Source of the DNA: an uncultured Elusimicrobia bacterium
Lineage (GTDB): Bacteria > Elusimicrobiota > Elusimicrobia > UBA1565 > UBA9628
Length of the DNA stretch: 64,000 nt
NCBI GenBank assembly: GCA_903830945.1
Contig: CAIKVT010000029.1
Coordinates: forward strand, 124,001 to 188,000
Direction: 5' to 3'
The notes under the pieces were generated by a model. That model saw only the letters and a program-made list of their open reading frames with translations. It was not told the DNA's origin and made no database searches. The stretch's first letter is position 1. Each line of letters begins with the position of its first letter. A program made the position numbers and the translations under genes. Of this stretch, positions 22,894-36,171 are shown piece after piece.

Positions 22894-24258
22894 TCACTGG
22901 GGGTTACCGTAGAGGTTATTGATGCGTTCCAAGCCGGCCTTGGCGTCGGGATTAGCCGGGTCGAGCTGAAGGGCATGCGTCCACTCATTGCGCGCCTTTT
23001 CGTAGTCCCCTTTGTCGTAGTAGATGATCCCGGAGAGATAATACTGCTGGGATTGCCGTTTATTGTCCTCGCTGGCGCCGGAATTCGCAGACGTGATGCC
23101 GGCGTCGGTCTTGGCCGTGGAGGTGCTTATCGCGGCGGCGAGCGCCGCCTTCCTGTCGGCCTCCTCCTTAGCATTCTTCTCGGCTGCCGCCTTGGCCAGC
23201 TCGGCGGCCCGGGACTTTTCCTCCTCGGCCTTCTGCTTGGCGATCTCCGAGGCTCGTCTGCGGACGGCATCCTCGCGGCGGACCTGCTCCTTGGCTCGAG
23301 CGATGAGCTGGTCGGCGGCGCGCGTGTCGTAACCGTAGGCGACGGCTTTCTTCCATTCCGACTGAGCCTCGTCGTACTTGCGCGACTCGTAGAGCTTGCG
23401 GCCCGACGCCACGTGCTGACTGGCCATCTCCGAGCGGATCTCGGCCTGCAGCTTCTGCGCTTTGACGTTACCCGGCCCCAGCGCAAGAACCTCGTCGAGC
23501 ATCTTGATGGACTCGTCGATAAGACCCTGGCCGTAAAGATTGAGCGCGGTCTGAAGCTTTTCATTGGCGTCGGCCTCCCGGGCCTCGGCCTCGACCTTGG
23601 CTATCGCCGGGACTAGACGAGGATACCTGGGGTTTAGGACCAGGGCCGCATACCACTGGTCCAGGCACTCACGCAGACGATGCTGCCGATAGGCCTTCTG
23701 CCCACGCCGGAAATGGTCGTCCGCCATCTCGCCGCGGGCTTTCTTGAGCCACCAACGGGCCTTGAGGTTGCTGGGCGAGAGTTTGACCGCCTCCTCCCAG
23801 CGCCCAGTCGCCTCCACCAAGCGCCCCTGGCGGTAGAGCGCCATCCCCTCCTCGAAGCGATCCTCGATGAGCTTAGCTTCCGAAGCGTACGGCTTGAGGG
23901 AACCGTTGAGCTCGATGGTGGCACGCTGCAGGATCCCGGCGTCCTCATAGGCCGGGTCGATGGCTAGGATCTTGGAAGTGAGGTCCCGCGCGCCGCTGAA
24001 GTCGCCCTTCTTGTAAAGGTCGAAGGCATTGTCGTAGACCCCGTTCAGGGTCTTGCGCATCAGGCGCGCCTTCTCCAACTGGATGGTATAGATGTACTTC
24101 TTCTTATCCTCCTCCGAGGTGATGGTCCCCAGATTAAGTTTGGCCATATCCAGGAATAGCCCGTCGGCGTCCTTGGCCTTGGAGAGGTCCTGCCCCCAAG
24201 CGGCACCTGCGCCTGCAGCGCAGGCGAGCCACAGCCCCATCAGGATATGCGCACTCAT
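22894..24258 (-). CDS. Exported TPR protein, TadD-like (454 aa)
   Basis: A periplasmic tetratricopeptide protein. The start is the ATG at 24258, which overlaps the TAA of tadC by one base (TAATG); a longer frame reaching 25179 is only a shadow. Signal peptide about 1-22 (ending AAWG-Q). TPR-like helices cover about 65-290, a charged Ala/Lys/Glu coiled coil like the TolA stalk about 290-370, and a last TPR about 400-450 (QQYYLSGIIYYDKGDYEKAR). The position directly after tadC is where tadD lies in many Tad loci, but TadD is usually shorter and a lipoprotein; here there is no lipobox. Likely role: assembly or outer-membrane support of the pilus (inference). Confidence 0.85.
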   Translation of the reverse strand: MSAHILMGLWLACAAGAGAAWGQDLSKAKDADGLFLDMAKLNLGTITSEEDKKKYIYTIQLEKARLMRKTLNGVYDNAFDLYKKGDFSGARDLTSKILAIDPAYEDAGILQRATIELNGSLKPYASEAKLIEDRFEEGMALYRQGRLVEATGRWEEAVKLSPSNLKARWWLKKARGEMADDHFRRGQKAYRQHRLRECLDQWYAALVLNPRYPRLVPAIAKVEAEAREADANEKLQTALNLYGQGLIDESIKMLDEVLALGPGNVKAQKLQAEIRSEMASQHVASGRKLYESRKYDEAQSEWKKAVAYGYDTRAADQLIARAKEQVRREDAVRRRASEIAKQKAEEEKSRAAELAKAAAEKNAKEEADRKAALAAAISTSTAKTDAGITSANSGASEDNKRQSQQYYLSGIIYYDKGDYEKARNEWTHALQLDPANPDAKAGLERINNLYGNPQ

Positions 24259-25169
24259 TAGAATCCAAGACCCCCCGTGATGAGCGACTTCATCATCGGC
24301 GCCAGCATCATGATGAATACCGTGGGGAAGATGAAGATGAACAGCGGGATGAGCATCTTGGTGGCGGCCTGAGCCGCGAGCTTCTCGGCCTTGCTGAGTC
24401 GACGAAAACGCATGTCCGTGGCGTAGTTGCGCAAAAGCTCCACCAGGCTCGTGCCCAGTTCGTCGGATTGGATGATGAGTCCGACGAAGGAACGGATCTC
24501 CTGGATGCCCGTGCGCGTGGCCAGCCTTTTCAAGGCGTCGCGGCGGGAGTAGCCCAGAGAGATCTCGTTGATCATCTTGCCCAGCTCGACTTCGAGCTCG
24601 GTCTTGGTCTTGGCGTTCTTGAGGATGCGGTCGATGGCGGTCATGTAGTCCAGGCCGGCCTCGATGGTGAGCGCGGTCAGGTCCACGAAAGTCGGGAAAT
24701 TGCGCATGAGTTCGGTCTGCCGGGCCCGTATCCGCCCGTTGAACAGCGAATCGGGGATGAAGAAGCCGATGACCCCGAAGACCCCCAGCACAGGCGAGCC
24801 GGTCATGAAGTAGATGAAGCCGACCAGCCCGGCGGCCAGCATCTCCTTGAGGTGCAGCATGTCCAGGGGGGATGGCTTGTTGGGCCGTCCCATCAGCATG
24901 TGCAGCTCCTCGAGCCTCACGTCGAGGTGGAATATCTTGAGCAGGAAGAGGTCTATGCGGTCGATCAGGCCGCCTTGCGGGTTGAGGCTCGAGAAGGCCG
25001 AGCTCATGCCCAGGTCCTTCTTGGCCAGCCGTGCCAAGTCGGACTGTTCCATCTCGGGCGGAGGAGCCAGCAGGCGATGGATGGACGTGTAGGCGGCCAC
25101 CGACCCCAGGACCCCCACCACCAGAAGCAGGTAATGCACGAACTGGCCGCTGAGCAGCGTGTCGCTCAT
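24258..25169 (-). CDS. tadC: TadC-like inner-membrane platform protein (303 aa)
   Basis: A T2SSF-domain protein of Tad systems that, with TadB, forms the inner-membrane platform for pilus assembly. Membrane segment about 12-30, a cytoplasmic part, two segments about 108-140, then the T2SSF domain (about 155-270: FVDLTALTIEAGLDYMTAID, SDELGTSLVELLRNYA) and C-terminal segments about 272-297. Length is normal for TadC. Its ATG overlaps the stop of tadB as ATGA. No missing element is visible. Confidence 0.9.
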   Translation of the reverse strand: MSDTLLSGQFVHYLLLVVGVLGSVAAYTSIHRLLAPPPEMEQSDLARLAKKDLGMSSAFSSLNPQGGLIDRIDLFLLKIFHLDVRLEELHMLMGRPNKPSPLDMLHLKEMLAAGLVGFIYFMTGSPVLGVFGVIGFFIPDSLFNGRIRARQTELMRNFPTFVDLTALTIEAGLDYMTAIDRILKNAKTKTELEVELGKMINEISLGYSRRDALKRLATRTGIQEIRSFVGLIIQSDELGTSLVELLRNYATDMRFRRLSKAEKLAAQAATKMLIPLFIFIFPTVFIMMLAPMMKSLITGGLGF

Positions 25170-26677
25170 ACCTGCACATCTCCCAGTTTATTGACGATCT
25201 TCATGCCGATGGCGATCCATATCGTGCAGAACATCAGCACGCAGACGCCCAGCGGCGTGAAGTAGAACTCCTTCATGGGGCCCGGCTGAAAAGCGAACAT
25301 GATGAAGAACATGACCCAGGGCATGACCCCCACCACGATAGCCTGGATGCGCTGCTGCGCGGTCATGGCCGCGGTCTTCTCGATGAGCTTGGTCTCCTCG
25401 CGGATATTCTCCACGATGCGATCGAAGATCTTGGTCAAGTTGCCCCCGACTTGGCGCTGGATGACCACGGCCTTGATCATATAGGAGAGGAGCCGGCTCT
25501 GCACGCGCTCCTCGACGCCCTCCAAAGAGCGCTCCAGGCTGGTCCCCAGCTGGTAATTCTTGATGCAGAGCCCGAATTCCTCGGAGATAGGCGGCTGCAG
25601 ATCCCGATGCACCAATTCGAGGCATTGAACGAGGTCGATGCCGGATTTGAGGCCGTTGGACATCAGGATCATGGCGTCCATGAGCTGAGCCTCGCATTTC
25701 ATGCCCCGCCGCCAGCGTATGTTGCGCAGCAGCCAGCCGGGCAGGATCAGCCCCGCGTAGATGCCGAAACCCGTAAAGATCAGGAAACCAAAAGGGTCGA
25801 AGGTCAGCAGGCCGATGAGAACGCCTATGACGGCCGGCCCGCCCACAAGATAATTAACTTTGATGGTGATGAACTGGCGCTCGTAGTCATGCGCCCACTG
25901 CTTGGCCTTGACCTTATAATCCTCGACGTACTTGGCGATACGCGCCTCGTTGAGCGCGCCCACGAACCAGAAGGCCGCAAAGAACATAGCGATGCCGGCC
26001 AACTTGAAGAGCATGGCCAGCGCCATAGCGGTCTTGCGGTCCCCCGGGGGCTCGGGCGGCGCGTAGCCCCGCGGCATGCGGTTCATGACGCGAAATGCAT
26101 TGTCGGTCAAGGCCCCGACGGCCAAGACCGCTTCCCTATAGCGCTCGGCATCCGCCGAAGTCAACGCGTCGATGACGCTGTCCATCTCCTTGAGGATAAG
26201 ATCGAAATCCGCCATCACCGCCCGGCCGCGACCTCCCAAAGAACTGCCCAGATGCGCGCGGTAGAGACGGTCTAAACACATCTGGAACCGGATGCGGTTG
26301 TCGGCGTAGTCTCGCACCAGCGCTCCGGGCTGGACCAGCTGGCCTCCGTCGGAAGGCAGAAAGGTCTTTCTGGTGAGCTCGAAGAACTCGTAGAGCACCG
26401 AGATCGGAGCCTGCCAGAGCTGAGCCTCGTTGATGACCCCTTCCTCCGGGTCCTGCCAAACCGGCCGCTTAAGCATGGCGTCCAAGGTCGAGTCGATCCA
26501 GGAGGGCACCGCCAGCCCCGGGTCCCGATCCTTCTTGAAGTAGTGGTAGATGATCTGGCTCTTGGCCTCGGCCCCCTCGGTCTTGTCCACCAGGAACTTG
26601 ACCTCCGCGGACGAGAAGATTTGCGCGCCCGCGGGCGCGGCTTGCAACCACAGGATGATGCAGAACCAGGCTCTCAT
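25166..26677 (-). CDS. tadB: TadB-like platform protein with extra exported N-terminal domain (503 aa)
   Basis: The C-terminal 300 residues are a TadB: membrane segments about 270-310, a T2SSF domain (about 340-460: LMDAMILMSNGLKSGIDLVQ, QVGGNLTKIFDRI) and closing segments 465-495. The first 200 residues are not part of the usual TadB: a signal-peptide-like start (1-19, AAPAGAQ) leads into a soluble, mainly helical domain (20-205), joined through a membrane segment (about 215-236). TadB proteins are normally near 300 residues, so this is an added periplasmic domain or a gene fusion. The ATG overlaps the stop of the tadZ-tadA gene as ATGA. The fused domain might contact the secretin or TPR protein (inference). 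Confidence 0.88.
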   Translation of the reverse strand: MRAWFCIILWLQAAPAGAQIFSSAEVKFLVDKTEGAEAKSQIIYHYFKKDRDPGLAVPSWIDSTLDAMLKRPVWQDPEEGVINEAQLWQAPISVLYEFFELTRKTFLPSDGGQLVQPGALVRDYADNRIRFQMCLDRLYRAHLGSSLGGRGRAVMADFDLILKEMDSVIDALTSADAERYREAVLAVGALTDNAFRVMNRMPRGYAPPEPPGDRKTAMALAMLFKLAGIAMFFAAFWFVGALNEARIAKYVEDYKVKAKQWAHDYERQFITIKVNYLVGGPAVIGVLIGLLTFDPFGFLIFTGFGIYAGLILPGWLLRNIRWRRGMKCEAQLMDAMILMSNGLKSGIDLVQCLELVHRDLQPPISEEFGLCIKNYQLGTSLERSLEGVEERVQSRLLSYMIKAVVIQRQVGGNLTKIFDRIVENIREETKLIEKTAAMTAQQRIQAIVVGVMPWVMFFIMFAFQPGPMKEFYFTPLGVCVLMFCTIWIAIGMKIVNKLGDVQV

Positions 26678-28947
26678 TTCGGCGCCGCCGCCGGGGGCAT
26701 TGGCGAGCCCCCGGAACCCTTCTTCTTCTTATGCTCCTCGCTCTCATACAACTCGCGCGGGACCACGAGGCCCTTGAGCTTGAACTCATCCTGGAAGCTC
26801 GGGATGTAGTCCTGGGCCGAGTAGAAGCCGACACTGCGGCCTTGTTCGTCGACGGACACCTGGCGGAAACGGAAAATGTCGCGGATCTTGACCTGGACCC
26901 CATCCTTGCCCGTGATCTCCGAGATGTAGGTGACGCGGCGCTTGCCGTCCGCAAAACGCGAGATCTGGACGATCAGGTGGACGGCGCTGGCGATCATGTC
27001 GATCAACACGCTCATGGGCAGTTCCGTGCCCGCGAAGAGGCACATGGCGGAAAGGCGCGAGATGGCGTCGGAGGGAGTGTTGGCATGGATGGTGGCCAAG
27101 GACCCTTCATGGCCGGTGTTCATGGCCTGCAGCATATCCAAGGCCTCGGCGCCGCGGCACTCCCCGACCACGATGCGGTCGGGGCGCATGCGCAGGCAGT
27201 TTTTGACCAGATCACGGATGGTGATCTCGCCCTTGCCCTCGATGTTGGGAGGACGACTCTCCAGCCTCACCCAGTGCTCCTGCATGAGCTTGAGCTCGGC
27301 CGTGTCCTCTACCGTCACGATGCGCTCGTCCTCCGGGATGAAGTTGGAGAGCATGTTGAGAAACGTGGTCTTGCCGGTGCCGGTGCCGCCCGAGATGATG
27401 ATATTCTTGCGCAGCAACACACAGCTCTTGAGGAACTCGATCATGTCCGGAGAGACCGAGCCGAAGCCGATGATCTGCTTATAAGTGAAGGGCTTTGCCG
27501 AAAAGCGCCGGATGGTCAAGCTGGGCCCGGAGACCGCCAGGGGCGCGATGATGGCGTTGACGCGCGAGCCGTCCTTGAGGCGCGCATCCACCAGGGGCAC
27601 CGACTCGTCGATGCGCCGGCCGATAGGGGCCACGATGCGCTTGATGACCTGGATGACCTGCTCGTCGCTGCGGAAACGATTGGGCAGGAGCACCAGTTTG
27701 CCGGCCCGCTCGATGTAGATATGATCGTAGGAATTGACCATGATCTCGTTGACGGTCGGGTCGCGCATGAGGGCCTGCAGAGGCCCCAGGCCCAGGATCT
27801 CATCGACCAGCTCGCCGACGAACTGTTCGCGCTGCGCTCGGGAGAGCGGCAGGTTGGCCTCCCGTTGCAGGAGGTTCTCGATGATCGATGAGACCTTCTT
27901 GCGATTCTCATCGTTCTGCCCCGCGTCGTCGGAGATGCGGATGCGCTCAGTTTCCATGGCGGAGACGACCTGCTTGTGCATCTTGGTCTTAAGTTCGTCC
28001 CAGAACTCCGGGATCGCCGGAGCGGACGTCGCCGCCGCGAACTTGGCCGGCGCCGCCGCAGCCTTCGGGACGGGGCCGCCGCCCTGAGGCTTCCAGAGGA
28101 AGTCGGAGCCCTCGCTGAACTCCTCGGCCGCCATGTAGCTCTCCCAAGATTTTTGGGTGGGCTTGATCTCCATGGTCCGGCCCAAGACAAAGCGCAGCGC
28201 CTTGACCCACTCGCTCTGCATATTCTCGACTATGAGGATCTTCTGGGTGTTGGCATACTCAGGCAGAAGGTCCTCCCAAGGCATGTAGGCCAGGACCTTC
28301 TTCTGCATGGCATTAAAGAATCGGTCGACCTCCTTAGGCGCCAGCGCCCCGGGGAGATTCGCCGCGTTGACAACGACCTCAAACTTTTCCAAGGGGAAGT
28401 GCAGGGCCTTGATCTCCTGGAACATATTATAGGTGGCCTCAAAATGAGCGCGCTGAGGCATGCAGGTCCAGAAAATGAGGTCGGCTAAATCGAAGGTGAA
28501 TATCTGCATCGGAAAAAACGGGTCCACATCAAGGAATAGGTCGTAGGCCTCGGCCAACGAGCCCAATATCTTCACCACCAGCTGCGGAGAAAGGCCCAGG
28601 ATCTCGGAGCGCTTGGCGGCCAGGGGCAGCAGGCCGACCCCCCACTGAGTCATTGGGATGCGGCCCCTGAGCAGCTTGCCAAGGCCGGTGGGGTTGTCTC
28701 CGACGAGCTGCGCCATGCTGGCCAAAGTCGGAGGATTGACCCCGAGCAGGAAGGATATATCATTGCGGCAGAGGGGATCCATGTGGACGATGATGACCTT
28801 CCGGTTCTGGCTGCCGGCCCAAGCCAAGGCCAGGTTGAGGCACAAAGTGCTCTTGCCGACCCCTTCCTTGGGGCCGGTGAACACGAGCACCCGACTCGGC
28901 TCCTTAGCGAGCCTCCCGGTCTCCGTCTCGGGCGTGACTTCTGCCAT
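26674..28947 (-). CDS. tadA: TadZ-TadA (CpaE-CpaF) fusion: localisation ATPase joined to pilus assembly ATPase (757 aa)
   Basis: Two Tad proteins in one chain. Residues 18-260 form a MinD/ParA-like domain with a deviant Walker [12 protein letters not shown] (25-35), like TadZ/CpaE, which places the system in the cell. A Pro/Ala linker (about 285-312) leads to a CpaF/TadA type secretion ATPase (about 315-735): Walker A GGTGTGKT (520-527), Asp box VTVEDTAEL (545-553), Walker [12 protein letters not shown] (591-601) and His box [11 protein letters not shown] (615-625). All are intact. A TadZ receiver domain is absent. The ATG has GGGGAG 8 nt upstream. In most loci tadZ and tadA are separate neighbours, so the fusion fixes a 1:1 ratio. 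Confidence 0.93.
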
Positions 28948-28959
28948 GATGGCGCTCCC

Positions 28960-29739
28960 CTACTTGACGATCTCCATGGTGATAAACAGGAACAGCGAGG
29001 ACTGCGTCTCCACAATGCTCGAACTGGTGAAGAGCAGTCCTAGAATCGGAATCCGGCCTATGTAGGGGACGCGCGTCTTGGTCACGTTCTTGGTGCTCGA
29101 TTTAAGCCCCCCCAAGACCAGCGTCTCGCCGCTCTTGATCTCGACCGAGGTCTGGAGCTGACGAGTGACGAAGGACGGCACGTCGGTTCCGCCCACGTGC
29201 ACGATCTTGGAGTAATCCGGATTGGAGACCTCAAGTTGCATCTCAGCGCGGATGGTGTCCTTCTTATTCGGGTTGATGACCGGCATGACATTAAGGATGA
29301 GTCCGTACTTCTTGAGCTCCACACCCACGCTGCCCGTGGCCCCGGTCACGGGATAAGGCTGCTCGCCTCCCACCACGAAATTGGCCTGCGAATTGGCCTG
29401 CACGATGACCTTAGGATTGGAAAGCATCTGCGCTTTGCCTTCAGTCTCCAGCATCTTCAACGTGGCCTGCAAGGCGGTCTGCCGGGCAAAGTCTCCCAGT
29501 TTGTAGATGCCGGGGATCTCTTTCTCCGCGAAAGTGATGCCCCCTTGGAAAGGCCCCCATGAGAACCCCATGTCGACTTCCTTGGAGCCGGACAGCTCCA
29601 CGATATCCGCCGAGACCGCCACGAGGGAATCCTCGGGCTGAGCCCAAAGCCGCGCGCCGCCGGTGAGCAGAGCCAACACCAGCACATGACCGACGACGCA
29701 CTTCCTGGAGAAGAACCGCACTGCCAGTTGTCTCAGCAT
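28960..29739 (-). CDS. Minimal secretin, RcpA/CpaC-like (259 aa)
   Basis: An outer-membrane secretin reduced to its core. A signal peptide (about 1-33, ending in RLWA-Q) is followed by about 60 residues and then the secretin beta domain (about 95-259), with the family signature near VPYIGRIPILGLLF and a C-terminus in beta strands (FLFITMEIVK). The N0/N1 and BON modules of RcpA/CpaC are absent, and the protein is about half the usual length. Ring formation may therefore depend on another periplasmic protein, such as the TadB N-domain, CpaB or the TPR protein (inference). No frameshift or second piece is seen upstream, where cpaB lies. Confidence 0.85.
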   Translation of the reverse strand: MLRQLAVRFFSRKCVVGHVLVLALLTGGARLWAQPEDSLVAVSADIVELSGSKEVDMGFSWGPFQGGITFAEKEIPGIYKLGDFARQTALQATLKMLETEGKAQMLSNPKVIVQANSQANFVVGGEQPYPVTGATGSVGVELKKYGLILNVMPVINPNKKDTIRAEMQLEVSNPDYSKIVHVGGTDVPSFVTRQLQTSVEIKSGETLVLGGLKSSTKNVTKTRVPYIGRIPILGLLFTSSSIVETQSSLFLFITMEIVK

Positions 29740-29842: not shown

Positions 29843-30598
29843 TTACTTGAACAGCTTGCGGAAACTCGCCATCTCCATCGGATGCATCTCCACGTCACCC
29901 AACCCCCGCAGAACCACGGTCGTGTCGCCCTGCTTCATGGCCAAAGACAGGTACTGCGCCTCGTTGGGATTGAGCGCGAGCGCGATCATGGCTTTCTCCG
30001 AGAAGGCCGCGGTCTTGTCCTCTTTATCCGTCGAGACCTTGGCCTGCTTTGCGTTCATCCCCTGGCCGAGGTTCGTCCCTACCGCGATGACCAGGACGTT
30101 CTGCAGGATGGTTGCCGTCACCCGCTCCTTACGGCCGTCCGCCATCACGGCCTCGAAGGTCACCAGGACGTCCACGCGGTCGCCCGGCTTGATGAGGGCT
30201 TTGAGCTCGTTCTCGATCCCGAGAATGGCGCCGCGATAGCCCGGCGGGATTTTGACGCTCAGGCCGGCCTCGGGAGACAGCGAGATCAACGCCGACTGGG
30301 TGATCTGGTTCCCCTTGGGAACGCGCACCCTGGTCACCAGGTTGGCGATGAGCTTAATATCAGCCGGAGTCTTGACCTCGAAAGCGTCCTGCTCCATAAA
30401 CTTGCGTGGGATCTGCATCGGCTCGACCATCTCTTCCTTGAGCACGGTGCGCTCAGGGATGTCCACGCGGGCTTGCAGGACCTGGCCGGTCTCATAGGCC
30501 GAGGAGAGCGCCCGCTCCTTACTGGTGAGCACCATCAGGTAGAAGATGGCGGCCCCCATGGCTAGAACCATCGGCACCAATATCCCTTTCTTTTCCAT
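29843..30598 (-). CDS. cpaB: CpaB/RcpC-like pilus assembly protein (251 aa)
   Basis: Tad accessory protein of the periplasm. An N-terminal membrane anchor (about 5-24) is followed by a SAF domain (about 38-105: VLQARVDIPERTVLKEEMVE, VPKGNQITQSAL) and a C-terminal beta domain (110-250: PPGYRGAILGIENELKALIK, PGDRVDVLVTF), as in CpaB/RcpC. Length is normal. The start is the ATG at 30598, two nucleotides after the stop of the TadE-like gene; a longer frame to 30682 is the shadow of that gene. It probably contacts the secretin just downstream. Confidence 0.9.
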   Translation of the reverse strand: MEKKGILVPMVLAMGAAIFYLMVLTSKERALSSAYETGQVLQARVDIPERTVLKEEMVEPMQIPRKFMEQDAFEVKTPADIKLIANLVTRVRVPKGNQITQSALISLSPEAGLSVKIPPGYRGAILGIENELKALIKPGDRVDVLVTFEAVMADGRKERVTATILQNVLVIAVGTNLGQGMNAKQAKVSTDKEDKTAAFSEKAMIALALNPNEAQYLSLAMKQGDTTVVLRGLGDVEMHPMEMASFRKLFK

Positions 30599-30600
30599 AG

Positions 30601-31059
30601 TTAGTAGGCCAGCGGTCGTTCGATGGGCATACGCACCGTCGCCCATATCGTGCACGAGCCCCCGCCCGGCCCCTTCGGGCAAAGAGGCTTCGACGACATC
30701 AAGATGCTGCTCAACGGGAAGACAAACTTGATCGGGTTGCTCCCCGTCACCACGAGGTCCGCGTTGGTGATCTGTGCCTGCGTGTCCTGGAAGGAGTGAT
30801 AGTCCACGCTGCAGGAGACGCTCGCGGACTGCAGAATCCGTTTCATCAGAGGCACCAAGCGGCCGCAGTCAGACATCACCGTGCCCAATGAAGTCACTTG
30901 AGTCATCGCCCCGATACGAGCCACTTCATAGGTGGCGTGATTGAGCAGGATCATCTGAAACGACATATAGCCCATCTCCATGATCGTAAAGACGATGGTC
31001 AGAAAAACGGGCAGGACAAGGAGCATCTCCACGAGCACCTGCGCTGGGTGCCGACGCAT
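30601..31059 (-). CDS. TadE-like minor pilin (152 aa)
   Basis: Pseudopilin of the Tad core. A short leader MRRHPA precedes QVLVEMLLVLPVFLTIVFTI, the TadE pattern with Glu at position 5 of the hydrophobic stretch; note Ala rather than Gly at the predicted cleavage point. The rest is a periplasmic domain with Cys near DCGRL, VSCSV and SKPLCPKG. I prefer the ATG at 31059. An in-frame GTG at 31125 with GGAGGG upstream would add 22 residues but would place a strong hairpin (31078-31099) inside the coding region. Confidence 0.78.
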   Translation of the reverse strand: MRRHPAQVLVEMLLVLPVFLTIVFTIMEMGYMSFQMILLNHATYEVARIGAMTQVTSLGTVMSDCGRLVPLMKRILQSASVSCSVDYHSFQDTQAQITNADLVVTGSNPIKFVFPLSSILMSSKPLCPKGPGGGSCTIWATVRMPIERPLAY

Positions 31060-31077
31060 CTCCTTACGGCACCCAGC

Positions 31078-31150
31078 ACCGTGGGCTACCGCCCACGGTC
31101 CCGCTTCCAATCCCTTCGTCGACACGATCCCTCCCCGCGGCCCTCGCGGG
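31078..31150 (-). other. Pair of hairpins between the Flp-like pilin and the TadE-like gene
   Basis: A 9-bp perfect stem ACCGTGGGC/GCCCACGGT with a 4-nt loop (31078-31099), and a 6-bp stem CCCGCG/CGCGGG (31134-31150). There is no T-run. Such hairpins after a major pilin gene often reduce read-through or stabilise the pilin mRNA; here that is inference. Confidence 0.45.
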
Positions 31151-31195: not shown

Positions 31196-31399
31196 TTAAT
31201 TACTGCTCGAACCCAACGAACCGGCGGCGCCGGAGATCATGGTCTGGATCTGACTGAAAAGGCCCGGCATGAACCGCTTGAGCGCCACCCCGGCCACCAG
31301 CACGACGCCGACGACCACGGTGAGCATCAGCAGGTACTCGACGGTGTTCTGCCCCTTGCGGCTCTTAAGCCATACGCGCGTCGCTTTCAGCTTCCTCAT
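31196..31399 (-). CDS. Flp-like pilin (67 aa)
   Basis: A small prepilin, likely the major pilus subunit. Leader of 16 residues ending SRKG, then QNTVEYLLMLTVVVGVVL: class III signal with cleavage between Gly and Gln, Glu and Tyr at positions 5-6 of the mature chain, as in Flp pilins. The mature protein is about 50 residues, ending in a Gly/Ser-rich tail. AAGGAG lies 9 nt before the ATG. It sits between another pilin-like gene and the TadE-like gene. Processing would need a TadV-like peptidase, which is not in this window. Confidence 0.85.
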   Translation of the reverse strand: MRKLKATRVWLKSRKGQNTVEYLLMLTVVVGVVLVAGVALKRFMPGLFSQIQTMISGAAGSLGSSSN

Positions 31400-31420: not shown

Positions 31421-31603
31421 TCAATAATATGTCATCAGGATCTTCTTACCGGCCAGGATGAACAACAGCTTCAACTGCCCCTGGATGAACCCGTACATGG
31501 CCGCAAAACAAGTCACCAAGACCATTGTGGTCAGGATGTATTCGACCGCAGCCTGTCCCGGCCGAGCCATCCGACTCATTGCCTTGAGGGCCATCTTCGT
31601 CAT
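31421..31603 (-). CDS. Small Flp-like prepilin, first gene of the Tad operon (up to 60 aa)
   Basis: A second small prepilin. The motif PG then QAAVEYILTTMVLV shows the class III cleavage site and the Glu-Tyr pair. The mature chain is about 45 residues with a basic C-terminus (GKKILMTYY). The reading frame opens with an ATG at 31603, but the strong promoter at 31606-31634 would start transcription near 31599, so the true start is more likely one of the in-frame ATGs at 31594, 31579 or 31570; the last has AAGG 9 nt upstream. It may be a minor pilin or an alternative major subunit. Confidence 0.78.
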   Translation of the reverse strand: MTKMALKAMSRMARPGQAAVEYILTTMVLVTCFAAMYGFIQGQLKLLFILAGKKILMTYY

Positions 31604-31654: not shown

Positions 31655-32629
31655 TTAAAATTTCACCTTGAACGAGAATTGGTCCACGGTGCCGAGAGCG
31701 CCATAAGGAACGTAAGCATAGTCCAAAGCGATGCCGTACCCGAAGGCCCGCGAGGTGAACAACCCGAAACCGAACGAAATGCCGGCGGCCCGATCCAGGC
31801 GCAGGCTCTTAAGCATTCCGTCGAAACTCTGCCCCAGGCTGTCCGCGTTGTAGTATCCCGCCCGGAACGTGACCTGGCCGACGTCGAGATACTGCTCCGG
31901 GAGCAGGAACTCCCCGCCCACTCCGAAATGGGATCCCGAATCGGCCGCCTGGTTGAGTTCGAGCCCGATGTTGAAGAAGTCTCCTAACCGCAACGCCGCG
32001 CCGCCCCGGGTGGTGGACGGCACGTTTTCCTTATTAGTCCCAAAATTCTGCATCGCGAATCCCAAGGTCAACACGCTGTTGGGCTTGAGCAGGACGCCGA
32101 GATCACCGACGACCGTGTCGTGAACGGAACTGGCGATGTCCTCATGGACCACGCGCAGCGTGCCGCCCAGGAACAACTTCTCATACCAGAACGAGCGCGC
32201 CATGCCGATGGAGCCGAAGCCGTCGCGCACATTGACGTTCTCACCGGTCTGGGGTATGCCTTTAGCGTCGCGCACGTCGAATCCCGAGACGCTCAAATAA
32301 GCGATATTGGCGCCCCAGACCGTGCGGCCAAGGGGATGGGCGTAGCCCAAGTAAAGGGGCGAGTCAGTGTCCTGGACGTAGCGCAGATAGGAATAGACCA
32401 CCTCTTTCTGCTGAGTCAGAGCCAAGCCGGCGGGGTTCCAGGTCAAGGCATCGGCACCCTCGGCCAAAGCCACGTAGGCCTGGCCCAGAGCCTGGGCCCG
32501 CGCCGAGCCCTGCTGGAGCTTCATGAACTGGGCGCCGCCGGTGCCGGCTTGGTCGGACACGGCCCAAGCCGCCGCCGGGCCGCTGAGCAGCCAGGCGCAT
32601 GCGAGTAGGGCCATTCTCCCGAGTTTCAT
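31655..32629 (-). CDS. PorV/PorQ-like outer-membrane beta-barrel protein (324 aa)
   Basis: Signal peptide about 1-23 (ending AWA-V). The start of the mature chain, GGAQFMKLQQGSARAQALGQ, followed by AYVALAEGADALTWNPAGLAL, is the hallmark of PorV/PorQ (FadL-like) barrels. Alternating strands fill the rest, and the chain ends in FSFKVKF with a terminal Phe, as expected for an outer-membrane barrel. PorV shuttles type IX secretion cargo in Bacteroidota; in other phyla its role is less clear. Its ATG overlaps the stop of the giant FlgD-Ig gene as ATGA, which makes the two a likely cargo and partner pair (inference). Confidence 0.85.
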   Translation of the reverse strand: MKLGRMALLACAWLLSGPAAAWAVSDQAGTGGAQFMKLQQGSARAQALGQAYVALAEGADALTWNPAGLALTQQKEVVYSYLRYVQDTDSPLYLGYAHPLGRTVWGANIAYLSVSGFDVRDAKGIPQTGENVNVRDGFGSIGMARSFWYEKLFLGGTLRVVHEDIASSVHDTVVGDLGVLLKPNSVLTLGFAMQNFGTNKENVPSTTRGGAALRLGDFFNIGLELNQAADSGSHFGVGGEFLLPEQYLDVGQVTFRAGYYNADSLGQSFDGMLKSLRLDRAAGISFGFGLFTSRAFGYGIALDYAYVPYGALGTVDQFSFKVKF

Positions 32630-35600
32630 CGCACTAGGAATTTCTTCACCGTCTGCATGGTGTTCCGGCTGCCGTCCGTGGCTTCAACCCGGATGACCGC
32701 ATAGTACACCCCGCGCGCGACCCGGCGACCGGCACTATTAGATCGGGTCCAGGTGAAGCAGGGGACGCCCCCCGCCGAAGAGCCCCCATTGACGTAATTA
32801 TTAGCCTGCTGCTCCCCAAAATCCTTATCCAGGACCAGCTCGCCGCTCATGGTGTAAATCCGCATCTTGACGTCGGCCTGAAACGGCGTAAAGATGACGA
32901 AATGCGCGCTGTCACCATCCACGGGATTGGGATAGACATAGGATGAGTGCTCGAAGTCCCCTTTAGGGTTCTCCGACTGGTTACGCACCACGGCGACCTC
33001 ATCAAGGGGGCGGTCCTCGGCCAACTCCGTCGGACTGAGTACATTGCCCGTGATATTGTCGATGGCGCTCATATCCGTGGAAGCCACGATGCTGAACTTA
33101 TAGTTCCCGTCGGGGTTCACGCCCAGGCGCATATCGGTGCCGTCCCAGGTCTCGGTGATCTGCGTGCGCGCCGGCCGCACGCCCACGATGCGCTTGACCA
33201 AGGACACGGCCTCGGGCGGCGACGGGTTTCCGTTGCCGTCGAAGACAGTCCCCGGACGGTATATCTTGACCGCCACTTTCATGGTCTCGGAGACCTGATA
33301 AAGGATGCGCGCCCCCTCCGACCCGTTAATCAACGGTGCGATGGCCACGTCGTAGATGCGCAACGGGTCGTAAGCAATGGTCCACTGCGCCGTGGAGGGC
33401 GAGGAGAGCTGTGAGGCCATATCCTGGGCCACGGCACGCACCAGATAGAAGCCGGACGGCGGGAAATTGCCCTTATCGTCCCGGCCGTCCCAAAGGTCCT
33501 CCAGCAGCACGCCGCCGTCGCGCACGGCCCCCGCGAACAGCGTGCGCACGACCTGATTGGGGACGTTGCTGTTGAGTATCTGGATGGTGACCGAGGACTG
33601 GCGGGTGAGGGCGTAGTTGATGGCGAAGGGGTCCAGCGTGATGGTGGCGCTGGAATTATAAAACGGCGGCATGAACGGCGTAACGGTGAATGTACTGAAT
33701 ATGATCGAACCCCGGGCCACGACCGCGCTCCCGAAGATCTGGTCCGCGGCGTAGTACTGGGGAGTCGTGGAAGACTGCGCGGCCAGAGTGAAAACATAGT
33801 TTCCGTCAGGGACCAGCAGTCCGCTGGCGTCCCGGCCGTCCCAATATTCGGTGATGCGCATGCGGCCGGGCCGCGTCCCGTGGAAACTAATGATAGGCAC
33901 AACCGGCGTGCCTGAGTTGACGATATTGGGGCAGGCGCTCATGAGCAGACCGCAGGGTGGCCAAGTTGAGGTGCTATTGAGGATGACCGTGCCCGGCTGA
34001 TAAATATTCCAGACGATGCTCATGGGCTGGGAGAGTTGGTAATTGAGCGAGACCGTATCCAAGGCCCCGGACATGAGCGGCGAGACCACCACGTCCGTGA
34101 TGCGGAACAAGTTCACCGGGAACGACGCCGTCACTGTCGAGACCTTCATGGGGCACATGGGGTCCGCGGCGGTCAACTGGACGATGTACATGCCCGTACT
34201 GACCCAAAGGCCGTGGTTGTCGACCGCGTCGTTCCACACCTCCGTGTTGGCGAACAAACCGGGCCGCACCACGTTGTTGATCAAGGTCCTGACCAGATTG
34301 GTGCCGGTATTGTCGTAGATTTTCATGCTCGTGATGGCATCTCGGCCGAGCGAATAACGGAATGCAAAAGGATTGAGGCCGCTGATAGCAGGGCTCGACC
34401 CGATCACTGTTGGACTGGGAGCCACCTGGCTGAGGCCCACATCGCCCCGCGCGACCGTGATGAAGCCGGTCTGAGCCCGGGATGTCCAGATGCGGCGGTC
34501 CTGCGGGTTGCCGTTGAAGGGAGACCCGTTCTGCGAGGGCAAAGCGGCATAGATCACGAAGACATAGCTTCCGTCCGTGCAAACGGCGTTATTGTTCATG
34601 TCCAGGCCGTCCCAAACACTCAACGCCGGACTGCGGCCGATCTTGATCTCCTCTATATGGCGCACCAGGGGAGCCGGGGTCAAACTCGGGCCGCTGCAGG
34701 GGCCCACATAAGGCTTGAAATCCTTCGGCCCATACACCGTCATGTAGCCGCCGGCGGCTATGATGGGCGCCGTCACGTCGGCATTGACAGTGTCGGTGAC
34801 CTGATTGATATCGCCGCAGAACTGGGTATTGGGAGGATAGATATCTATATACACCGTCGCGGGCTCGGTGAGGGTGTAGCTCAACGTCGCCAAAGACGTC
34901 GCTCCACCGGCCAGAGACCGGACCCCGAGGTCCGTGATCTGCAAGGGGTCTATGCCGATCTGCCGCGTGGTCGGGAAGGCAAGGTCTCCCCCGTACTGAT
35001 CTTGAGCGAAGGCCTGCAAGGTCGCCAGGAACACGCCGCCAGGAAGAAGGTCCCCGTTGTCCGCGCGCCCGTTCCAGGAATCTCCGTTGAGCAAGGTGCC
35101 GTTGGGCGTGCCCTCGCCCGCGCGCGGCAGGCCCGGCAGAACGGTGCGCAGCACTTGATTGCTGGCCGGGTCGGTGATGGTGATGTACATCGAAGCGTCT
35201 TTGGAGAGCCGATACTGGAGATTGTAGGGCTCGGCGTAGACCCCGGCACTGCCTACCACTGTGGGAGAAGAGCCCACCACATGCACATTGGTGACGTCCA
35301 TGCTGATCGGCTTCTGGTCGACGAAATACCCATTGACATCCCGAGTGGCGCCCGCCGGGAAGGCGCGCTGGGCCGTGATTGTGATGTTGCCGCTGGAACC
35401 GGTCTGGTTGGTCTGAGCAGTGACACGGAACCCATACTGACCGTTGGTCTTGCCCAGCTCGCCCTGGATGGGGTAGGCGCCGTCCCAAAGCACACAGTAG
35501 GGGGGAAGGTCGCCGCCGGTAGAGTTGCTGTTATGGGGAAGGATGCCGGGAGAATCGATGAAGAACGTGCGCAGCGGCGGGGTGGAGCCCGCGTCCAGGG

Positions 35601-36171
35601 GATTGGACCCGTTCTGGAACTTGAAGATCTCGAATTCCACCATATCCAAAGCCACGTCGTCCGAGCCCGGGTTGTTGTAGCCGAGGCCGGCGCAGAGGAA
35701 TATGTCGGCGTTGCAGATATTATTTCCGGCCGGGTCGTCGCCTGCGGGAGACCGGCTCGGTATGCACTCGCTGTTGATCAAACGCGCTTGGTCGAACTCG
35801 ATGTGGGGGTCGTTGGAGATGTTGCCGTTCTGCGGCTCCAACCCCGACCCGGAAAGGTCGTTGATGTCCTGACAGTAGCCGGTTCCGGCCGTCGCGCAGT
35901 TGTTCGACTTGTCCATGCAGTAAAAATGCTTATACGCCGCATTGTAATAGCAATAATTTCCGCTGTCCTTGACCACGAATGACTGGTCGATGAAAAGCTG
36001 GACTTGGCCCTGCGCGCAGAGCCGGGAGGACAGGAGCAGACACAAGAGGGCGGCCCCGGAGAACGCCTGCGCCGCCCTCTTCAGGAGGGGAGAACGTCCG
36101 CCCTCCGAGTAAGGCGCACCCTGGCGCGCCGCCCGAATGCTGAGCCGATGTTGATTCATAGATTGCATCAC
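32626..36171 (-). CDS. Giant exported protein with FlgD-Ig repeats and sorting-like C-terminus (1181 aa)
   Basis: A surface or secreted protein. Signal peptide about 32-53 after a basic stretch. An N-terminal domain with several Cys (55-300) is followed by tandem units of some 100 residues, each containing a variant of the pattern WDGRD-x-x-G-x-x-x-P-x-G-x-Y, typical of FlgD Ig-like domains. The last 95 residues begin SYVYPNPVDGDSAHF and end FLVR, resembling the FlgD-Ig or type IX sorting-type domain that ends many exported proteins of this kind. The GTG at 36171 is directly followed by ATG codons; the ATG at 36162 has AAGGTG 9 nt upstream and is an alternative. Role: adhesin or structural envelope protein (inference). 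Confidence 0.82.
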   Translation of the reverse strand: MMQSMNQHRLSIRAARQGAPYSEGGRSPLLKRAAQAFSGAALLCLLLSSRLCAQGQVQLFIDQSFVVKDSGNYCYYNAAYKHFYCMDKSNNCATAGTGYCQDINDLSGSGLEPQNGNISNDPHIEFDQARLINSECIPSRSPAGDDPAGNNICNADIFLCAGLGYNNPGSDDVALDMVEFEIFKFQNGSNPLDAGSTPPLRTFFIDSPGILPHNSNSTGGDLPPYCVLWDGAYPIQGELGKTNGQYGFRVTAQTNQTGSSGNITITAQRAFPAGATRDVNGYFVDQKPISMDVTNVHVVGSSPTVVGSAGVYAEPYNLQYRLSKDASMYITITDPASNQVLRTVLPGLPRAGEGTPNGTLLNGDSWNGRADNGDLLPGGVFLATLQAFAQDQYGGDLAFPTTRQIGIDPLQITDLGVRSLAGGATSLATLSYTLTEPATVYIDIYPPNTQFCGDINQVTDTVNADVTAPIIAAGGYMTVYGPKDFKPYVGPCSGPSLTPAPLVRHIEEIKIGRSPALSVWDGLDMNNNAVCTDGSYVFVIYAALPSQNGSPFNGNPQDRRIWTSRAQTGFITVARGDVGLSQVAPSPTVIGSSPAISGLNPFAFRYSLGRDAITSMKIYDNTGTNLVRTLINNVVRPGLFANTEVWNDAVDNHGLWVSTGMYIVQLTAADPMCPMKVSTVTASFPVNLFRITDVVVSPLMSGALDTVSLNYQLSQPMSIVWNIYQPGTVILNSTSTWPPCGLLMSACPNIVNSGTPVVPIISFHGTRPGRMRITEYWDGRDASGLLVPDGNYVFTLAAQSSTTPQYYAADQIFGSAVVARGSIIFSTFTVTPFMPPFYNSSATITLDPFAINYALTRQSSVTIQILNSNVPNQVVRTLFAGAVRDGGVLLEDLWDGRDDKGNFPPSGFYLVRAVAQDMASQLSSPSTAQWTIAYDPLRIYDVAIAPLINGSEGARILYQVSETMKVAVKIYRPGTVFDGNGNPSPPEAVSLVKRIVGVRPARTQITETWDGTDMRLGVNPDGNYKFSIVASTDMSAIDNITGNVLSPTELAEDRPLDEVAVVRNQSENPKGDFEHSSYVYPNPVDGDSAHFVIFTPFQADVKMRIYTMSGELVLDKDFGEQQANNYVNGGSSAGGVPCFTWTRSNSAGRRVARGVYYAVIRVEATDGSRNTMQTVKKFLVR

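Follow-up and report, generated by a model that had tools for sequence, protein, structure and literature searches.

Do TadZ and TadA, separate proteins in described Tad pilus systems, form a single protein in an uncultured Elusimicrobia bacterium, and if so, what has become of each? The question arose from an initial annotation of a 64,000-nucleotide stretch of its genome (NCBI GenBank assembly GCA_903830945.1, contig CAIKVT010000029.1, positions 124,001 to 188,000 of the forward strand), hereafter the window, which reported both proteins in one continuous frame without giving its strand. We found this frame on the minus strand, where it encodes 757 residues and has no internal stop codon, while the same positions read on the plus strand are interrupted by stops. 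As predicted from its sequence, the product of this gene, here called tadZA, is a TadZ/CpaE ATPase domain without a receiver (REC) domain, placed as the N-terminal module of a TadA/CpaF motor. The gene and its parts, in window positions, are:

26674..28947, minus strand: tadZA, fused TadZ-TadA gene; ATG at 28947, stop codon ending at 26674, 757 amino acids
28162..28893, minus strand: TadZ-type MinD/ParA ATPase domain without REC, residues ~19-262 (Pfam, profile comparison)
28846..28875, minus strand: deviant Walker A motif, residues 25-34 (sequence, conservation in alignments)
27988..28161, minus strand: variable linker, residues ~263-320 (alignment; approximate boundary)
27778..27987, minus strand: three-helix region, equivalent of the N-terminal domain NTD1 of CpaF, residues ~321-390 (offset from the alignment with CpaF 9e24; approximate)
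26743..27777, minus strand: TadA/CpaF NTD2 and C-terminal motor ATPase, residues ~391-735 (Pfam, NCBIfam and PDB matches)
27364..27390, minus strand: TadA Walker motif, residues 520-528 (sequence)

In the N-terminal part, Pfam recognised a CbiA/MinD/ParA domain at residues 22-233 (E 9e-9, above the Pfam cut-off). The deviant Walker motif of the MinD/CpaE-like domain, already seen in the initial annotation, was located at residues 25-34, where it carries the signature lysine (K27) and the P-loop lysine (K32). The C-terminal part matched Pfam T2SSE at residues 386-664 (E 4e-63) and, in the PDB, Caulobacter CpaF 9e24 (E 1.5e-112, query 287-735). Nine motif columns of the TadA boxes (G520, K526, T527, E547, D548, R588, E596, H613 and H621) are all present in the window protein, in agreement with the earlier claim of a full CpaF-type ATPase with its boxes. 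NCBIfam TIGR03819, a model of the TadA family, matched residues 354-676 with an E of 7.6e-97 and 324.5 bits, below the curated cut-off of 373.15 bits; the model is labelled a hypothetical equivalog, and its cut-off is an annotation threshold, not a property of the protein. Despite the sub-threshold score, the other matches place the C-terminal part in the TadA family. The three-helix region was placed by comparison with CpaF, in which NTD1 is reported to span residues 80-149 (PMC11300603).

The fusion is widespread in the phylum. A search of 294 Elusimicrobiota genomes with the window protein gave a match at E of 1e-20 or lower in 237 and none in 57. Fusions were counted on stop-to-stop frames only; the frame lengths reported by the search run through stop codons. 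Both domains were found in one stop-free frame in 57 of 60 loci, in two sets of 30 from the phylum searches, a recurrence far above what chance would give. All 30 loci listed for the window protein (L001 and L009-L037, from its family and order) are fused, and intact separate genes in close relatives, which the initial annotation had named as the sign of a sequencing frameshift, were found in none of them. The other set (L057-L086) has 27 fused loci; of the remaining three, L064 and L065 run off the contig, and in L061 the two domains are divided over two frames. The 57 fused loci plus L097 represent 17 family groups, as labelled in the searches, some within the window's class and some beyond it. 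A further 18 Elusimicrobia loci, many from the same genomes, include 14 with both domains in one frame (one of them, L048, with an additional frame shift in the N-terminal part) and four cut at contig ends. No separate TadZ was found in the window genome, in which no other site matches the fused N-domain, and no separate TadZ ATPase was found in 20 Elusimicrobiota regions, where the matches to the TadZ profile, judged by their positions in it, were receiver domains only. Judged by these comparisons, tadZA is a genuine covalent TadZ-TadA fusion.

The origin of the N-domain was examined by comparing profiles with hhalign. The profile of 19 fused N-domains aligned with that of 12 separate Bacillota TadZ proteins with a probability of 100 and an E of 5e-52. 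The alignment is confined to the ATPase half (positions 163-407 of the TadZ profile); nothing in the fused proteins corresponds to the receiver half, and only 18 residues precede the fused domain. Both profiles have the same best PDB match, 3ea0. The most diverged family (f15 with two neighbours, eight sequences) aligned with the other fused domains at an E of 1.5e-25 and with separate TadZ at 7.8e-13. The N-domain is therefore, as far as profile comparison can tell, derived from TadZ without being a full TadZ; the earlier designation of the N-terminal part as TadZ is right for the ATPase half and fails for the receiver half, which is missing.

We then compared the two nucleotide sites in an alignment of 42 fused Elusimicrobiota proteins, 21 from the window's class, 15 from a mixed group of other families and six from f15. 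The P-loop lysine of the N-domain is kept in 19/21, 1/15 and 0/6 of these groups, respectively, and the signature lysine in 18/21, 10/15 and 0/6; both are present in 17 proteins of the window's class. The Walker B column (140) was not used, being off by one in the middle group, and column 57 was left out, as several middle-group proteins keep an Asp two residues upstream. Two proteins of the window's own genus (L011 and L012) have already lost the P-loop lysine. The nine TadA motif columns, on the other hand, are all kept in all 42 proteins. Separate TadZ from Bacillota retains the P-loop lysine in 22 of 24 cases, as does the single Actinobacterial separate TadZ; among 19 distinct fused proteins from the Bacillota side, 14 have the P-loop lysine, 10 the signature lysine and five both. 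The N-terminal nucleotide site is thus intact in the window protein, where ATP binding appears possible, and has mostly been lost in the other fused lineages of Elusimicrobiota.

Other explanations of this gene have to be weighed. The window genome is a draft of 84 contigs, in which a sequencing or assembly frameshift could join two genes, but the two domains share a frame in 57 of 60 loci across separate assemblies, which excludes a sequencing error and leaves this explanation hardly credible. It could also be that TadA captured an FlhG/FleN- or MinD-type regulator instead of the system's own TadZ. When the N-terminal part was used as a single sequence, its PDB matches were indeed FleN and MinD, all members of one superfamily. 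However, the TadZ profile match (a comparison not made in the same way with FleN and MinD alignments), the best PDB match common to the fused and separate profiles, and the lack of a separate tadZ exactly where the fusion sits all speak for TadZ, and we regard the capture of another regulator as quite improbable.

Two further alternatives accept the fusion and question what it makes or does. The gene may have two products, with free TadA also made from an internal start or by cleavage of the linker, which is variable and of low complexity at residues 263-320; Met331 is common in the window's class and could serve as such a start. The Met331 site gave no support to an internal start: no good ribosome-binding site precedes it, either in the window protein's gene or in any of the 13 relatives with the motif found (16 tried), and the residue itself is not conserved. 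We regard two products as very improbable. Alternatively, the N-module might be a functionless passenger on its way out, frozen by the fusion onto an otherwise ordinary TadA. Such a passenger would account for the degenerate nucleotide site outside the window's class and for an N-domain identity that falls to 0.16 between groups where the TadA part keeps 0.53. Yet a useless domain of 260 residues should be lost, and the N-domain is present, nearly at full length, in every aligned fused Elusimicrobiota protein, can be recognised as TadZ even in the most decayed family and keeps both lysines in most of the window's class; a passenger is accordingly improbable. We consider it likely, with good but not complete confidence, that a REC-less TadZ fused to the TadA motor in a 1:1 ratio acts as a structural docking module.

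In the locus, tadZA replaces the adjacent tadZ-tadA pair at its usual place between the secretin gene and tadB. The TadA half would form a hexamer by analogy with CpaF, which is reported to be hexameric (PMC11300603), and this motor would extend, and probably retract, the Flp pilus. One tethered TadZ module per subunit would fix the ratio at 1:1 and keep the modules beside the motor. The initial annotation's reading of six TadZ-like domains per hexamer that link localisation to the motor stays conjectural. For Caulobacter, it is reported that a ring around CpaF observed in situ was fitted with six CpaE dimers, that CpaE lies around and against CpaF in situ and moves to the CpaF base when the cell is piliated, that AlphaFold3 gives CpaE-CpaF contacts, and that the REC domains are proposed as links between the CpaE dimers (PMC13170226). 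The TadZ modules of the fused motor would be positioned without such domains; in one fused protein these links would be unnecessary, which fits the missing REC. The TadZ module would most likely serve a structural purpose by docking the motor to the assembly site in the inner membrane, and ATP binding would be an optional aid to dimerisation. Because the nucleotide site is lost in most other lineages, a role as scaffold or adaptor would fit the family better than an ATP-driven positioning switch, and ATP-driven switching by the N-domain appears unlikely where the site is gone.

Several observations weigh against the proposed docking motor. A 1:1 ratio would differ from the Caulobacter model of six CpaE dimers per CpaF hexamer. 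AlphaFold models built with 13 sequences each reached a mean pLDDT (predicted local distance difference test score) of 47.4 for the full protein and 45.5 for the N-domain, too poor for use. No membrane anchor could be assigned because the helix that follows the MinD core does not stand out as amphipathic; the 18-mers there rank 60th or lower of 740 and gave no support to an amphipathic anchor. The prepilin peptidase TadV is absent from the locus, and the sole Peptidase_A24 match in the genome lies on another contig, C1. The P-loop lysine is also lost in all three separate Proteobacterial TadZ proteins (L141, L144 and L146), so that its loss is not specific to the fusion, which weakens the idea that fusion by itself permits the P-loop to decay.

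The Tad genes around tadZA all lie on the minus strand, in the order two small pilins, TadE, RcpC, secretin, TadZA, TadB, TadC and a tetratricopeptide repeat (TPR) protein:

31421..31603, minus strand: Flp-like pilin, 60 amino acids; G....EY motif and hydrophobic stretch, no Pfam match
31196..31399, minus strand: Flp-like pilin, 67 amino acids; weak Class_IIIsignal and Flp1_like matches, both below cut-off
30601..31125, minus strand: TadE-like minor pilin (PF07811, E 6e-10)
29843..30601, minus strand: RcpC/CpaB (PF16976, E 5e-17)
28960..29739, minus strand: short secretin, 259 amino acids (PF00263, E 3e-40); stop 12 nucleotides before the tadZA start
25166..26677, minus strand: TadB platform protein with a long N-terminal extension (T2SSF, E 1e-17); start overlaps the tadZA stop by 4 nucleotides
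24258..25169, minus strand: TadC platform protein (T2SSF, E 3e-17)
22894..24153, minus strand: TPR protein in the TadD position (TPR matches; putative role)

The locus holds TadA together with TadB, TadC, a secretin, RcpC, TadE and small pilins, the pilin assignments being weak. The Pfam domain of the secretin occupies residues 97-259 of only 259, and the Kil secretin is likewise reported to be unusually short (PMC8460266). In TadB (503 residues), a long extension precedes the T2SSF domain at 338-461. Just upstream of the Tad genes, positions 32626-36171 encode an 1181-residue protein that contains FlgD Ig-like domains and weakly matches C-terminal sorting domains; similar proteins adjoin Tad genes in the relatives' loci L091, L097, L100, L101 and L102. 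The window's own contig has a second, very divergent ATPase of the T2SSE family (L002, G000:C29:211440-212459, 364 amino acids), whose neighbours are FAD-dependent oxidoreductase and kinase genes, not Tad genes.

A search for the same domain pair elsewhere, as the initial annotation had proposed, also found it in Bacillota-side genomes, and the idea that the fusion is specific to Elusimicrobiota is rejected. The search, centred on the Eubacteriales genome G294, gave a match in 123 of the 199 genomes of its phylum. The 32 Bacillota-side loci inspected form a non-random sample, 12 being the best matches and 20 chosen mostly for long frames. The Bacillota norm, seen in all 12 best loci (L109-L120), is a tadZ with REC and ATPase domains directly upstream of tadA. 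Several Bacillota cases that at first appeared fused proved to be two neighbouring genes that share a frame but are divided by a stop; in L109-L113, L115 and L118, a single stop codon separates tadZ from tadA, so that the loss of one stop would create a fusion. Stop-free fusion was found in eight of the 32 loci (L121, L124, L125, L126 and L137-L140), of which L126 has a MinD-like N-terminal part (profile 2e-12) with a degenerate P-loop and no Pfam match to that part. In the class of G310, 9 of 30 fetched loci have it, as do five of five genomes in the class of G301. With duplicates removed, these sets together give 19 distinct Bacillota-side fused loci. Five genomes (G496, G521, G518, G527 and G515) contain a canonical split pair together with a fused copy. 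The gene order is the same around both kinds, RcpC-secretin-TadZA-TadB-TadC in the fused loci L185, L187, L189, L192, L194 and L195 and RcpC-secretin-TadZ-TadA-TadB-TadC in the split copies L197-L199 and L201. A secretin restricted to fused motors was considered and rejected, since a secretin was found in five of five split regions and in every fused region but L193 (14 of 15). None of the 5000 best plasmid records covers 80% of the fused query, and annotated Pseudomonadota/Actinomycetota plasmid records (L141, L143 and L144) have an AAA-family ATPase gene directly upstream of CpaF. In L128, L130 and L131, separate TadZ proteins have long N-terminal open frames (516-857 residues in total) before the REC-ATPase part, as a further TadZ fusion or an overlapping gene.

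Two trees of TadA were compared. A branch with a support of 100/97 gave the same split in the first tree (74 rows) as in the second, which contains 68 TadA domains (from Elusimicrobiota 22 fused and three short unfused, from the Bacillota side 17 fused and 20 labelled unfused, and six from plasmids) and leaves out the long-branch rows L002, L093 and L056 as well as other first-tree rows from Elusimicrobiota and Bacillota. In this unrooted second tree, 24 canonical split-type TadA from four phyla lie on one side of a branch with a support of 98/97, and the other side holds every fused protein together with the three short second copies, which sit inside Elusimicrobiota, the FHA-TadA of L142, and L126. 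In the approximately unbiased (AU) test, a single origin of all fused proteins had a p of 0.132 in the first tree without three long rows and of 0.039 in the second, with L126 counted as unfused and the short second copies and the FHA protein held out; the N-domain tree has a weakly resolved base and many long branches. The fused proteins may have one origin or several. We tentatively suggest, at somewhat less than even confidence, that fused TadZA represents a distinct, deeply diverging class of Tad motors that parted from split TadZ and TadA before its carrier phyla diversified or exchanged it, in which a REC-free, often nucleotide-dead tethered TadZ collar replaces the free CpaE ring and which works beside a canonical Tad machine in some cells.

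The short second copies are TadA-like ATPases of about 350-420 residues in Elusimicrobiota outside the window's class (L088/L089, L090:4509-5564, L091:8419-9519, L094:2756-4009 and L092:10489-11559). They lack the TadZ part and, it appears, the three-helix NTD1 too. They directly follow a secretin gene in four of five regions and, in G035 and G037, lie within about 10 kb of the fused gene. Tad is described as a single-motor system, and the short copy may possibly be a dedicated second, perhaps retraction, motor. The FHA-TadA fusion is encoded on a Moraxella bovis plasmid (L142:2530-4260) and is placed by the tree outside the clade of canonical TadA; the plasmid annotation shows no separate tadZ between the secretin and tadA.

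That TadZ and TadA are separate in described Tad systems, as the initial annotation stated, was supported in the literature searched. In a 2025 census, 292 CpaF orthologs, reported to span all major bacterial phyla, are assigned to plain, disordered-region and FHA classes, and none of the classes described has a MinD/TadZ domain (PMC12019362). No published description of a TadZ-TadA fusion was recognised in that literature, most subscription papers, including two 2012 papers on TadZ, being outside its scope, and the architecture seems undescribed, though the sequences are public. How the Tad motor subcomplex coheres, and the role of TadZ in it, are stated open questions (PMC6916266). A natural fusion is evidence, independent and drawn from evolution, for TadZ working in contact with TadA; it would limit their ratio to 1:1, and it indicates that REC is dispensable in the fused form and, where the site has decayed, nucleotide binding by TadZ as well. 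It also adds an architecture missing from the three classes of the census, and purification of a single protein should ease obtaining a TadZ-TadA structure.

Compared with known systems, tadZA resembles TadA/CpaF (Caulobacter CpaF, PDB 9e24 and 8rjf) in aligning from the three-helix bundle to the C-terminus, in its intact motor motifs and in its place in the locus. Unlike the described CpaF N-termini, which are reported to have nothing, a disordered region or FHA (PMC12019362), tadZA has a TadZ ATPase domain. With TadZ/CpaE, whose gene normally lies directly upstream of tadA, it shares a homologous ATPase half and the deviant Walker A with the signature lysine, but it lacks REC, is not a separate protein and has lost the nucleotide site in most other fused Elusimicrobiota lineages. 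The FHA-CpaF proteins (class III), among them KilF of Myxococcus, are likewise TadA with an N-terminal accessory domain, and the Kil system also has a short secretin (PMC8460266), although their accessory domain is FHA, not MinD/TadZ. In the archaellum (FlaI with FlaH) and in archaeal type IV pili (with a FleN/MinD ATPase), the motor ATPase is also served by a second P-loop ATPase, but there the two are reported as separate proteins (Denise 2019; PMC4858521).

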